From positions 1 to 40,157 of the IMG/VR virus record IMGVR_UViG_3300041409_000531: DNA of 40,157 nucleotides. One strand, given 5' to 3'. The position numbers and the translations under genes were made by a program. The DNA comes from a virus. Positions 2,797 to 7,679 of this stretch are shown here, piece by piece (within the stretch, counting starts at the first letter, position 1; every line of letters begins with the position of its first letter). Below the pieces are notes generated by a model that did no database searches, was not told the origin of the DNA, and saw only the letters and a list, made by a program, of their open reading frames with translations.

Positions 2797-3612
2797 TTAC
2801 TTTCCTCTAAGCTTCGGGTGCTCGCACTTCTTCACGCCGCCCTTCCCTATCACGCCCGACGGCCAGAACATACCTGAGCCGAGACAGTCAGGACAGTCCG
2901 AATAATCCTTACGTTCGTGCGAACCTTCCCTTTTTGATTTTTCTTTTAATGCTTTTACTTTAATGGTGTCGCTTCCCGGTAGGCTATCGGTATCCGGTTG
3001 GCTATCGGGAGACGACACCCAGTATGTGGTGCCCTGCTCTTTGTTCCTGCCGATCTCGTATTCAAGCTTCCTGATGAGACCTTTGTCGATGAGGCGGTTG
3101 ACGGTCGCCTGCGTTGTCGTCTTCCCCATGTTCGTACGCCGGGCGAGCTGCGGTAAACCTATCTTGCACGTCGGTTTCCCGTAGCCGTGCGAGAGTCGGT
3201 AGAGTTGAGTGTAGATGGCCTGCTCGTAAACGTCTAAGACCTGGCAGAGCCCATCGGTGTATGCGTGAGGCTGGCGAAGGTGCCCCCGCTTGTCTTTGAA
3301 CGGCGCCCACAAATCCGGCCTTCGACTGTCGGGAGCCGGTAGGCTATCGGGTTCCGGTTGACTATCGGGCGGGTAGGCTATCGCGTCAGACGATAGTCTA
3401 TCGTCTGCGGGTAGGCTATCGGGTACAGATTGTCTATCGGGAATCGGTAGGCTAGCGGTTGCCGGTTGGCTGTCGGGGGCGGGTAGGCTATCGGGAGCCG
3501 GCAGTGTGGGCGCCGAAGATTCTACTTCATGGGCGTCCACATCAGGTTCGCGCGGGCGTCCGGGCTTACTGCGAAGCGCCTGCGCGAAGTTCAGCGGCTT
3601 CCGGTTCTCCAT
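2797..3612 (-). CDS. Winged-helix replication initiator-like protein with hexapeptide repeats
   Basis: A 271-residue protein. Residues about 38-98 are a proline-rich tract of about ten hexapeptides of the PDSLPA type. Residues about 125-198 form a likely winged helix (GKTTTQATVNRLIDKGLI), and the C terminus has a possible zinc site (CPDC at 240-243, KCEH at 262-265). The gene follows an AAA+ ATPase gene and overlaps it by 47 bases. In lambda, the initiator O and the helicase loader P are adjacent and the origin iterons lie inside O; here 18-bp repeats and a 21-bp palindrome lie inside this gene. I infer an initiator. A regulator with a flexible linker is the alternative. No polymerase or helicase domain is present. 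Confidence 0.65.
   Translation of the reverse strand: MENRKPLNFAQALRSKPGRPREPDVDAHEVESSAPTLPAPDSLPAPDSQPATASLPIPDRQSVPDSLPADDRLSSDAIAYPPDSQPEPDSLPAPDSRRPDLWAPFKDKRGHLRQPHAYTDGLCQVLDVYEQAIYTQLYRLSHGYGKPTCKIGLPQLARRTNMGKTTTQATVNRLIDKGLIRKLEYEIGRNKEQGTTYWVSSPDSQPDTDSLPGSDTIKVKALKEKSKREGSHERKDYSDCPDCLGSGMFWPSGVIGKGGVKKCEHPKLRGK
3338..3495. repeat. 18-bp iteron-like repeat array
   Basis: About nine copies of a GGTAGGCTATCGGG-like unit at 3338, 3356, 3371, 3391, 3410, 3428, 3446, 3463 and 3481, mostly 18 bp apart. Two more copies lie at 2979-3009 near the 3' end of the gene, outside the main array. The most constant core is CTATCGGG. The array encodes the PDSLPA hexapeptides. The 18-bp unit is close to the size of known initiator iterons, and the DNA core is kept where the peptide departs from consensus. 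Confidence 0.7.
3387..3407. repeat. 21-bp perfect palindrome inside the repeat array
   Basis: Arms CAGACGATAG and CTATCGTCTG around a central T at 3397. Each arm contains the CTATCG core of the surrounding repeats, so two repeat cores face each other here. It lies in the middle of the array and would suit a dimer-binding or melting site of an origin. Confidence 0.7.
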
Positions 3613-4423
3613 TGCGCTCCGTAATTAGTATGTTCTCGACAGCCAGCTTGATGATGTCGTCGATGATCGGCCTTGTTTCGTTCACAGCCGCGAGGAGAAG
3701 GGAAGCGTTAGCTATCTTCATGATCTCCCGCGGGACGCCGCGGCTTGCTACGTAGAGGGCTTTCAGCGCGTCTTCGGCGATGATGTCCAGCTTACCCCCC
3801 GCGAGGCGTATCCGGTGCTCCAGTGCGGCCACCATATCTTCAAAGGTGAAGGTGTCGAGGTAGTTCGTCAGGATGATGCGGGAGACGAGCGCGGGCTTCG
3901 TGGCAAGTTTGGTTTCTATCTCGGGCTGGCCCGCGATGATGATCTGGATGGTCTTTGCCTCGTTACTCTCGAAATTGAGCAACTCTCGCAGAAAATCGAA
4001 CTGCGCGCCCTTGAGGTTCTGCGCTTCGTCGATGATGAGGATGATGGTCCCGCCCTCAGCATAGATTTGGAAGGCGTAGTCACGTATCTCGTTTATTTGG
4101 GCTAACAACGAGCGCCGGCCGGGGAGTCCCAACTCACTTGAGATAGCCTTCGCGAGCTGCATCTCGGAAGGGAAGGAGCCGTTCGGGAGCATCGCAATCT
4201 TGTACGTCTCGTCGTCGATGTAGCCGTTCAGCAACTCCCGCAGCACGGAAGTCTTGCCGTAGCCGATTTTACCGACGATGAGTGAGAGCCCCTGACGTTC
4301 CTCGATCACGAATTTGCACTTGAACAGGCAGGCATTCGTCTGGTCGGTCAGGTAGAGGAACCGCGGGTTCGGACTCGGCACGAATGGGTTCTCTTTAAGA
4401 CCAAAAGCCTTATACGCCTTCAT
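3566..4423 (-). CDS. AAA+ ATPase, ExeA/TniB/MuB-like (helicase loader candidate)
   Basis: A 285-residue P-loop ATPase. The start FGLKENPFVPSPNPRFLYL is typical of the ExeA/TniB/MuB group. Walker A is GKIGYGKTS (51-59), Walker B IILIIDEAQN (127-136), sensor I IIIAGQPE (161-168), with a likely arginine finger in SRI (181-183). In phages, such ATPases load a replicative helicase or regulate a transposase. No transposase is present and the next gene looks like an initiator, so helicase loading is favoured. A promoter lies so close upstream (-10 ending at 4432) that the mRNA may begin at the ATG, and no ribosome-binding site is seen. Confidence 0.8.
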   Translation of the reverse strand: MKAYKAFGLKENPFVPSPNPRFLYLTDQTNACLFKCKFVIEERQGLSLIVGKIGYGKTSVLRELLNGYIDDETYKIAMLPNGSFPSEMQLAKAISSELGLPGRRSLLAQINEIRDYAFQIYAEGGTIILIIDEAQNLKGAQFDFLRELLNFESNEAKTIQIIIAGQPEIETKLATKPALVSRIILTNYLDTFTFEDMVAALEHRIRLAGGKLDIIAEDALKALYVASRGVPREIMKIANASLLLAAVNETRPIIDDIIKLAVENILITERNGEPEAAELRAGASQ

Positions 4424-4431
4424 AGCAGGCG

Positions 4432-4461
4432 GTTATAAGTGCAACGGGGAAGGGAAGTCAA
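4432..4461 (-). promoter_or_regulatory. Promoter of the AAA+ gene, possibly leaderless
   Basis: Reading on the minus strand: -35 TTGACT (4461-4456), 18-bp spacer, -10 TATAAC (4437-4432). Only eight bases separate the -10 from the ATG at 4423, which predicts a transcript starting at or next to the start codon. Confidence 0.55.
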
Positions 4462-4513
4462 GACAATTCTGGGAGGGGTGGGTAGGAATTGAGGATTGTT
4501 GTGAAGAGAAGGG

Positions 4514-4527
4514 GAGCGTCTACGCTC
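4514..4527 (-). terminator. Short hairpin at the end of the coiled-coil gene
   Basis: GAGCGT (4514-4519) pairs with ACGCTC (4522-4527), overlapping the stop of the coiled-coil gene. On the minus strand a pyrimidine tract CCCCTTCTCTTC follows. It may be a weak terminator separating this unit from the AAA+ gene. Confidence 0.35.
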
Positions 4528-4810
4528 ACTTCTTAGAGCCTTTTTTCGCAGACTTCTTACTCGCCTTCGCGGGCGGCAGTGCCTTCTCGTACTTCAACAT
4601 CCTGTTCTCCAACTCCAGCAGCAGGTTCTCGTGCCGTTGATCCGCCTGCTCCTTAGCGTGCCTATTCTCCTGAGCCAGCGCGCGGACGATGGCGGTGAGG
4701 TCGCGGACCTGCGTCTGCATCTCCTTGATGTCCGCCCGCTGCTGGTCGAGTTCCCGGCTGAGCGTGAGGATTCTTTGGACGAGGGAGGCGAAGTCAGAGA
4801 ACCAGCTCAT
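4526..4810 (-). CDS. Coiled-coil protein with lysine-rich tail
   Basis: A 94-residue protein. Residues about 10-75 form a continuous heptad-like helix (LSRELDQQRADIKEMQTQVRD); the tail is lysine-rich (KASKKSAKKGSKK). There is no membrane segment. The start overlaps the stop of the RRM gene by four bases (ATGA), so the two are coupled. The RRM protein also ends in a coiled coil, so a heteromeric complex is plausible but unproven. The basic tail could contact RNA or DNA. Confidence 0.65.
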   Translation of the reverse strand: MSWFSDFASLVQRILTLSRELDQQRADIKEMQTQVRDLTAIVRALAQENRHAKEQADQRHENLLLELENRMLKYEKALPPAKASKKSAKKGSKK

Positions 4811-5310
4811 GCGGCGATCATCCGTTGGAGTTCCGAGATGTTAGAGCGCGTCTCCTTCTTTAGCCTGTCAATCTCTTTTCGGTCTCGCCCCAGCCTTTCG
4901 ATTATTTCGTCTACCTCGGCAAGCTGCGCGCGCACCTCATCCGCGCTGGGCGGTTGCACTCCTTCGGCGTCAAGGCGCCCGGTCGAACTACCGCCGCGGT
5001 GCTTACGGTCATATTTGCCACCGCCGAAGCCGCCGCGCCCGCCGCCACCGGGCCTGCGGTCTTCGCGGGGCTTGGCCTCGTTGACGTTGAGCGCGCGCCC
5101 GCCGACTTCCTTGCCGTTGAACTGCTGGGTGGCCGCCTCGCCCTCTTCGCGTGAAATCATCTCGACGAAGCCGAAGCCGCGCGAGCGCCCCGTGTCACGG
5201 TCCTCGACGACCACTTCCGCCTCGACGGTGTCAGCCTGCTCGAAAAGCTCCTTAAGTTTTTCGCTATTCGTCTTAAAAGAAAGGTTGCCGACGTAAAGCT
5301 TAATTGACAT
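4807..5310 (-). CDS. RRM RNA-binding protein with Gly-rich linker and coiled coil
   Basis: A 167-residue protein. Residues about 3-80 are a textbook RNA recognition motif: RNP2 LYVGNL (5-10) and RNP1 RGFGFVEM (44-51) with both exposed aromatic positions present. Then comes an RGG-like glycine/arginine linker (about 86-106) and a charged helix at about 122-165 (EIIERLGRDRKEIDRLKKET). The first part closely resembles single-RRM proteins of Cyanobacteria and other phyla that act on mRNA fate; the C-terminal helix is extra. The ribosome-binding site is GTGAGGTA, seven bases before the ATG. It heads an operon with a coiled-coil gene. A phage-borne RRM is unusual, and acquisition from a host is likely. 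Confidence 0.88.
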   Translation of the reverse strand: MSIKLYVGNLSFKTNSEKLKELFEQADTVEAEVVVEDRDTGRSRGFGFVEMISREEGEAATQQFNGKEVGGRALNVNEAKPREDRRPGGGGRGGFGGGKYDRKHRGGSSTGRLDAEGVQPPSADEVRAQLAEVDEIIERLGRDRKEIDRLKKETRSNISELQRMIAA

Positions 5311-5394
5311 TTGATATTACCTCACAAATTCCCGCGTAAACTTTCTTGTCACGGGAACTATTATCGCACGAAACGCCCGGCGGGAGAATGCGGA

Positions 5395-5574
5395 TTATAG
5401 ACGCACGGCCACCTCGGAGGCGTCGGCCGCTTCGAAGAAGAGGTCTACCGCCTCCTGGAGGTTCGCACGGGCCTCCTCGACCGTATCGCCCTGTGAGGCG
5501 ATGTCGAGCTCGGGGCAGAGGGAGACGTAGCCGTCGTCCTCGCGCCAGATTGTCGCCGTTAAAGTTCTGGTCAT
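5395..5574 (-). CDS. Lone HicB-like protein
   Basis: A 59-residue protein, start chosen at ATG 5574 with AGGAAG just upstream. The pattern TATIWREDDGYVSLCPELDI...GDTVEEARANLQEAVDLFFE is that of the HicB/UPF0150 partial RNase H fold. HicB antitoxins normally pair with a HicA toxin and often carry a DNA-binding C terminus; neither is present here. It may be an orphan antitoxin, able to neutralise a host HicA, or a regulator. Confidence 0.75.
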   Translation of the reverse strand: MTRTLTATIWREDDGYVSLCPELDIASQGDTVEEARANLQEAVDLFFEAADASEVAVRL

Positions 5575-5650
5575 ATCTTCCTGCCTTTCCTCCTTCGGTT
5601 GAGCGGAGTGTAGCAGAGAGATGGGCGGCTCGGGAGGGAAGTGTTGACCG

Positions 5651-7110: not shown

Positions 7111-7362
7111 ATGACGGGGACATTTACGCAGACCACGGAAACGATAGCCGAGTTGATGAAGGGAGTACAGATCGGCAACTTCAATCTCGGCAATTTCAAT
7201 CCGGCGGAAACTCGCCTTGTCCTCACGGGAGGCCAGCGGCTAGAGGCGTTCGTTAGCGGGTATGAAGAGGGCGGCGCGCGCCTGACGATGCTCGCCTCCG
7301 AACCTGTACTCCGCCGGGAGTGGAGTTCGCCGGAGGAAAATGAAGCGTGGGAAGATTTGTAA
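7111..7362 (+). CDS. Antitoxin candidate of the PemK/MazF module
   Basis: An 83-residue protein with GGAGG before the start. It lies directly upstream of a PemK/MazF-like toxin gene and overlaps it by 16 bases. The C terminus, REWSSPEENEAWEDL, is the acidic tail typical of antitoxins that wrap around such toxins (SPEExEAWxxL). The N-terminal part has no recognisable helix-turn-helix or AbrB fold, so autoregulation is uncertain. Confidence 0.7.
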   Translation: MTGTFTQTTETIAELMKGVQIGNFNLGNFNPAETRLVLTGGQRLEAFVSGYEEGGARLTMLASEPVLRREWSSPEENEAWEDL

Positions 7363-7679
7363 AGGGCGAGGTCGTAGTTTTACCCTTCCCGTTTTCGGAT
7401 TTGTCGAATACGAAAAGAAGGCCCGCCCTAGTGGTCGCCCCCTTACCCAGCAACGACGTGATTCTGTGCATGATTACGTCTAAGAACACGTCAGACGCTG
7501 ATGCCGTTCCCCTCACCGGGGCGGATTTTCAGTCCGGCTCTCTGAGGAAAGATTCAAACATCCGTCCTAACCGACTATTTACGGCTGAGGAGAGTATTGT
7601 GCTTTACTCGGTAGGCCAACTGCATGGGGCTAAGATTGCGGAAGTAACGGCTAGGCTTGTTCACATCCTTAGACGGTGA
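7347..7679 (+). CDS. PemK/MazF-like endoribonuclease toxin
   Basis: A 110-residue protein starting at GTG 7347, nine bases after GAGG. KGEVVVLPFPFSDLSNTKRRPALVV is the conserved start of the PemK/MazF family, and SLRKDSNIRPNRL...ESIV..VGQL is the usual second half. These toxins cut mRNA unless held by their antitoxin, here probably the overlapping upstream gene. On a phage such a module can stabilise the element or exclude other phages. The tract after the stop is an exceptional chain of inverted repeats. Confidence 0.85.
   Translation: MGRFVKGEVVVLPFPFSDLSNTKRRPALVVAPLPSNDVILCMITSKNTSDADAVPLTGADFQSGSLRKDSNIRPNRLFTAEESIVLYSVGQLHGAKIAEVTARLVHILRR

Follow-up and report, generated by a model that had tools for sequence, protein, structure and literature searches.

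The closest described relatives of the protein studied here are the bacterial Rbp proteins, i.e., the cyanobacterial Rbp1, Rbp2, and Rbp3 and their Acidobacteriota homologues. They share its RNA recognition motif (RRM) subgroup and RNP motifs, with up to 78% identity, and in both, the RRM is followed by a short Gly-rich stretch. In Synechocystis, the RRM of Rbp1 took on the function of Rbp3 in salt tolerance when it was given the Rbp3 tail, a precedent for a C-terminal region able to redirect a bacterial RRM (PMC9333190).

We analyzed an RRM gene in the whole of IMG/VR record IMGVR_UViG_3300041409_000531 (40,157 nucleotides, hereafter the window). Clear terminase, portal, and capsid families mark the record as a phage; among 50,697 named phage records, 800 are matched by its terminase. 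In three related phage contigs (L039, L041, and L042), about 50 bases separate the counterparts of the window's two ends, which implies that the window is a nearly complete genome. The capsid protein gave no pointer to the host, with matches in 6/297 genomes of the phylum of G001 that were all partial or weak (G001 includes L009, a Blastocatellia bacterium, Acidobacteriota). The phage's gene pair for an AAA ATPase and a RepO-like protein also occurs in the Acidobacteriota-phylum contigs L095 (G057:C149:7200-9303) and L096 (G069:C191), with 68% identity in the ATPase. Elsewhere, the window encodes a small protein whose two CCHC-like zinc knuckles score below the Pfam cut-offs (1243-1452) and a PemK/MazF-like toxin gene (7347-7679, plus strand; Pfam 1.2e-10).

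The RRM-coil gene and the origin of its RRM

The RRM-coil open reading frame has an ATG start preceded by a GAGGT ribosome site. The original prediction of a full RRM with intact RNP1 and RNP2 was borne out: both motifs are intact, and Pfam RRM_1 matches residues 5-74 with an E-value of 5.2e-18 and a score of 65.1 bits, the cut-off being 20.7. NCBIfam Rbp_regulator (NF058537) is nonetheless the best family at 88.5 bits, under its cut-off of 100; there was no PHROG match. RNA binding is expected of the window RRM from its family. The linker anticipated as RGG-like is Gly-rich with a single RGG, and it resembles a shortened host Gly/Arg tail. The predicted C-terminal helix was likewise recovered in a single-sequence AlphaFold2 model, where residues 123-166 form one 44-residue helix (pLDDT 93-98), while the same model cannot be relied on for the RRM (mean pLDDT 57.8). 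Downstream, the gene2 start codon lies inside the RRM-coil stop codon (ATGA), confirming the proposed coupling to a second coiled-coil gene. Coordinates are collected in the table.

Table. Features of the RRM-coil locus and its surroundings, in window coordinates.
Feature	Position	Strand	Basis or remark
RepO-like replication protein	2797..3612	-	phrog_678
MuB/ExeA-like AAA ATPase	3566..4423	-	Pfam AAA_22, phrog_296; 96-97% identical in 4 sister contigs
Promoter-like TTGACT-18-TATAAC of ATPase gene	4432..4461	-	8 nt before ATG; same in 5/5 phages
Exchanged cassette	4493..5319	-	Comparison with sister phages; no match to L039, L041, L042
Weak terminator-like hairpin after gene2	4514..4527	-	2 such sites, against 1.6 expected by chance
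gene2, 94 aa coiled-coil partner	4526..4810	-	ATGA overlap with RRM-coil gene; 90% identical in L040; host-only gene2 HMM
RRM-coil protein	4807..5310	-	167 aa; RRM joined by Gly-rich linker to gene1-type tail
Gene1-type coiled-coil tail, residues 122-167	4807..4947	-	81-84% identity to L040; host gene1 HMM
Gly-rich linker with one RGG, residues 86-121	4948..5055	-	Sequence; host tails
RRM domain, residues 1-85	5056..5310	-	Pfam RRM_1; placed among Acidobacteriota-phylum RRMs
RNP1, RGFGFVEM, residues 44-51	5158..5181	-	Sequence; invariant in 7/7 aligned RRMs
RNP2, LYVGNL, residues 5-10	5281..5298	-	Sequence; invariant in 7/7 aligned RRMs
HicB-like gene, 60 aa, without HicA	5395..5577	-	Just upstream of cassette; 76-90 aa in L041/L042

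By its placement in a tree, the window RRM is of host type and nested among the RRMs of Acidobacteriota, the phage's likely hosts. In an alignment of 67 rows and 86 columns, it groups with 14 rows from the Acidobacteriota phylum (support 94/88), most other forks of this tree being unresolved; its nearest relative by identity is L066, at 78%. RRM matches were found in 230/297 genomes of the phylum. The 30 RRM proteins examined from it have Gly/Arg-rich or short tails, one of them (L088) being cut by a contig end, and a coil was present in 0/30, in agreement with the suggestion that the coiled coil is not part of the usual bacterial form. The window protein thus departs from the short or Gly-rich C-terminus of the Rbp type, since its Gly-rich linker is followed by a coil. 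In GC content and third-position GC, the RRM part (0.596 and 0.776) is close to the ATPase gene (0.561 and 0.748), so capture of the RRM need not be recent.

Relatives of the coiled-coil tail and gene2

Gene1, the host family to which the tail was compared, and gene2 had no family in Pfam, NCBIfam, PHROGs, or PADLOC. Profile A2, built from the two phage gene2 proteins, matched in 7/297 genomes of the phylum, and profile A6, to which host copies were added, in 6/297. In the class of G015, profile A6 found gene2 in 30/162 genomes, and a single genome had as many as 11 matches, including some fragments. Two IMG/VR contigs considered as gene2 relatives (L100 and L101) were set aside as weak matches that failed the gene2 HMM.

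We chose heptad-preserving shuffles as a control for homology because coils resemble each other. With a host-only HMM, the gene2 protein of the window scored 68.1 bits against a best of 14.4 in 2000 shuffles, and other coil genes reached 5.9 (L039) and 4.0 bits (L041). For the tail, a first gene1 HMM built from 13 host proteins gave 20.8 bits, a score reached by 6/2000 shuffles. A second HMM, built from 16 sequences hand-chosen from a larger list, gave 33.1 bits, with 0/2000 shuffles as high and a best of 25.5; it also matched the corresponding protein of a sister phage (L040; 32.0 bits, 0/2000) and a G348 protein (28.6 bits, 0/2000).

A gene1 HMM match lay directly upstream of gene2 on the same strand at 53/57 distinct gene2 stretches, a count in which 16 of the gene1 sequences also built the HMM, G360:C35, G360:C14, and G339:C158 are left out, and split matches may count twice. 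Among the four misses, inspection by eye shows a small coil-like gene in that place in three (L150, L108, and L159) and none in the fourth (L172). The HMM scores relative to the shuffles, together with the position upstream of gene2, show the coil and gene2 to be homologous to a host-type gene pair, the homology of the tail to gene1 being less firmly established than that of gene2.

The pair is not obligatory in the host. Gene1 matches occur in 35/162 genomes of the class of G015, and some host copies have no adjoining gene2: ten listed gene1 loci are without a gene2 match, and most have ordinary neighbors. A copy beside a phosphorylase-like gene recurs in the same place in G044, G155, and G233. 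Host gene1 proteins are mostly 55-85 aa with a short N-terminus. A 234 aa gene1 protein (G348:C195) that adjoins a gene2 has a membrane-type N-terminus with two hydrophobic stretches, identified by eye, and the gene1 N-termini in G331:C173 and G423:C59 are longer, with start codons that are unsure. The pair was also present on a mobile-element-like contig of 5471 bases (L286, G360:C22) along with ParA, a PIN-domain gene, and a RepO-like protein that shares 32% identity with that of the window; gene2 is split between frames on this contig.

The exchange slot and the RRMs of other phages

Four sister contigs (L039, L040, L041, and L042) carry an AAA ATPase 96-97% identical to that of the window, and the region upstream of it is an exchange slot. 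The match between the window and L039 stops at 5320, ten bases ahead of the RRM start codon, and restarts at 4492. The slot holds a coil gene with gene2 in the window and L040, HicB and HicA in L041 and L042 (HicA_toxin, 5.7e-18), and HicB with an unrelated coil gene in L039; BLASTP showed no likeness between the L039 and L286 coil genes.

In L040 (3300034002_000019), the gene preceding gene2 codes for a protein with the same tail as the window protein (84% identity over residues 123-167; 81% over 47 aligned columns) and the gene2 proteins are 90% identical, whereas the first 120 residues of the upstream protein are unrelated to the RRM. Judged from this alignment, the N-terminus has been swapped on a conserved tail between sister phages. 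The L040 N-terminus matches no Pfam or PHROG family and no relative but itself in IMG/VR, and a structure model of the protein has low confidence outside the helix; because the contig begins at the ATG of this gene (its first base), the N-terminus may be incomplete. With the same tail behind a different front in a sister phage, the module resembles a socket into which different heads can be fitted.

Host contamination of the assembly had been raised in the original prediction. The RRM is of host type by phylogeny, yet the gene sits between flanks that both match the sister phages, and the tail is found again in L040; we therefore rejected contamination. The suggestion that the gene heads a replication-region operon also had to be revised: the pair precedes the replication genes without necessarily sharing their operon. 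All five phages have the promoter-like site before the ATPase gene, which a promoter scan had missed because it wanted a T at the last position of TATAAC, and the short distance from this site to the ATG in five phages, at 4423-4461 of the window, suggests that the ATPase mRNA may be leaderless. Given this site and the breaks in the L039 match at 5320 and 4492, RRM-coil and gene2 are better described as an exchanged cassette than as the head of a replication operon, and membership of that operon is not favored.

The structured RNAs elsewhere in this genome, offered as possible targets, found no counterpart among Rfam families at the gathering threshold across the whole window. The claim that RRMs are rare in phages survives for named records, where 3/50,697 match the window RRM (the same three match two other RRM queries). 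Their RRM genes neighbor zur, a sugar-phosphate phosphatase, ybaL, and rep helicase; neighbors such as zur and ybaL make these records look like bacterial chromosome. Two INPHARED entries named as phage, MW495066.1 and CAKLQH020000005.1, have a chromosome-like RRM neighborhood. For phages overall, the claim is not borne out. A first scan of IMG/VR gave 7 RRM contigs and an alignment scan confirmed 119, found from two 7-mer patterns, of which 80 were kept. At 43/80 of these viral RRM loci there are homologues of the tail-chaperone-like or tape-measure genes of L002, a contig with Mu-like gpT, sheath, and tube proteins. This recurrence of the RRM as a gene of Mu-like tail operons was unexpected, and four such RRMs form their own clade in the tree (100/98). 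The tail-operon genes (L002:5522-6285; L214-L285) encode 92-96 aa and lie between a tail-chaperone-like gene and the tape measure in contractile-tail operons.

The 80 viral RRM loci contained no match to gene1 or gene2, so the RRM-coil fusion is known from one genome; no other RRM-gene1 fusion was seen among these loci or the gene1 matches of the 162 genomes. A search of mostly non-subscription literature on phage and bacterial RRM proteins, bacterial Gly-rich RRM proteins, and Blastocatellia with phage found no report of a phage RRM-coil protein or gene1-gene2 pair.

Proposed role and comparison with known systems

We give about an even chance to the following reading: the locus is a chimera in a phage exchange slot, made of an Rbp-type RRM, a gene1 tail, and an overlapping gene2, with an accessory function. 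An Acidobacteriota Rbp-type RRM would have had its Gly/Arg tail cut short and been joined to the gene1 coiled-coil tail. The fused protein would be translated in overlap with its partner gene2, and tail and gene2 may form one coiled-coil complex, by which gene2, or what gene2 holds, could be brought to the RNAs bound by the host-type RRM, or those RNAs to gene2. By analogy with Rbp1 and Rbp3, the phage would keep the RNA preferences of the host and change the partner, i.e., gene2 and whatever gene2 holds. The most likely use would be that of a moron, outside the core replication machinery, which redirects or blocks host Rbp-controlled mRNAs during infection or lysogeny. That the two proteins form a complex, which RNAs they target, and how the phage gains from them are inferred.

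A broader proposal, which we hold only tentatively, is that Acidobacteriota and their phages use gene1-gene2 as a plug-in coupling device, in which a conserved docking tail and its partner would be combined with an exchangeable input: an RRM, a membrane-type region, an unknown phage region, or a short strand-like one. Here, the host-type RRM might serve to take over Rbp-controlled mRNAs or to sense RNA.

That gene1-gene2 is instead a toxin-antitoxin or other addiction or defense module, with the RRM and other N-termini as its RNA-facing or sensing half, seems unlikely. In its favor, the genes are small and overlapping, with many scattered copies (up to 11 gene2 matches in one genome); HicB and HicA fill the slot in L041 and L042, and the L286 pair shares its small contig with a PIN-domain gene, ParA, and a RepO-like protein. 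However, no toxin, antitoxin, or defense domain was found in RRM-coil or gene2 above the curated cut-offs of Pfam, NCBIfam, and PADLOC, several gene1 copies stand alone among ordinary neighbors, and the phosphorylase-adjoining copy recurs across G044, G155, and G233 like an inherited gene.

We are equally doubtful that the locus is an ordinary moron, in which a chance union of a host Rbp gene and a coil by illegitimate recombination left an RRM that acts as the host Rbp does and a coil that only oligomerizes. A host-type RRM, found once and in an exchange slot, would fit such an origin, but the reading frame, RNP motifs, tail, and overlapping gene2 have all been kept. Moreover, the tail is 81-84% identical behind a different N-terminus in L040, which argues for selection on the tail and gene2.

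It is highly improbable that the cassette belongs to the replication operon and that RRM-coil serves the phage in DNA replication or transposition, in the manner of a factor linked to Gam or MuB, since its position directly upstream of the ATPase and RepO-like genes and a weak match of the L040 tail to a Mu Gam-like PHROG (E 0.029) are offset by the promoter-like site of the ATPase gene itself in 5/5 phages, by three of four sisters that lack the cassette with an ATPase still 96-97% identical, and by the Gam match being at chance level for coils and confined to the L040 protein.

If the chimera reading holds, a phage took a post-transcriptional regulator of its host and swapped the disordered tail for a docking coil, and it becomes testable whether the action of a bacterial RRM protein is set by its tail rather than by the RRM. 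The analysis also brings up the RRM genes of Mu-like tail operons, which make up a large group of their own, and an unnamed, multi-copy Acidobacteriota gene pair with an exchangeable front part. We consider this exchangeable front on a conserved, unnamed coiled-coil pair the most interesting part.

Compared with known systems, HicBA is related to the locus by place, in that HicA fills the same slot in L041 and L042, and has no domain in common with RRM-coil or gene2. The RRMs of Mu-like tail operons (L002-L008, L214, and others) are likewise phage-encoded single RRMs of bacterial type; unlike the window protein, they form a separate clade, are 92-96 aa long, and lack a coil, and the window RRM lies neither in their clade nor in a tail-operon location. 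With the Acidobacteriota gene1-gene2 pair, the tail and gene2 of the window share homology, order, and spacing, whereas the short N-terminus of host gene1 is replaced by the RRM in the window, by another region in L040, and by a membrane-type region in G348. Finally, in contrast to the Rbp proteins, the window protein has a C-terminal coiled coil in place of a Gly/Arg-rich end, is encoded in overlap with a partner gene, and is borne by a phage.
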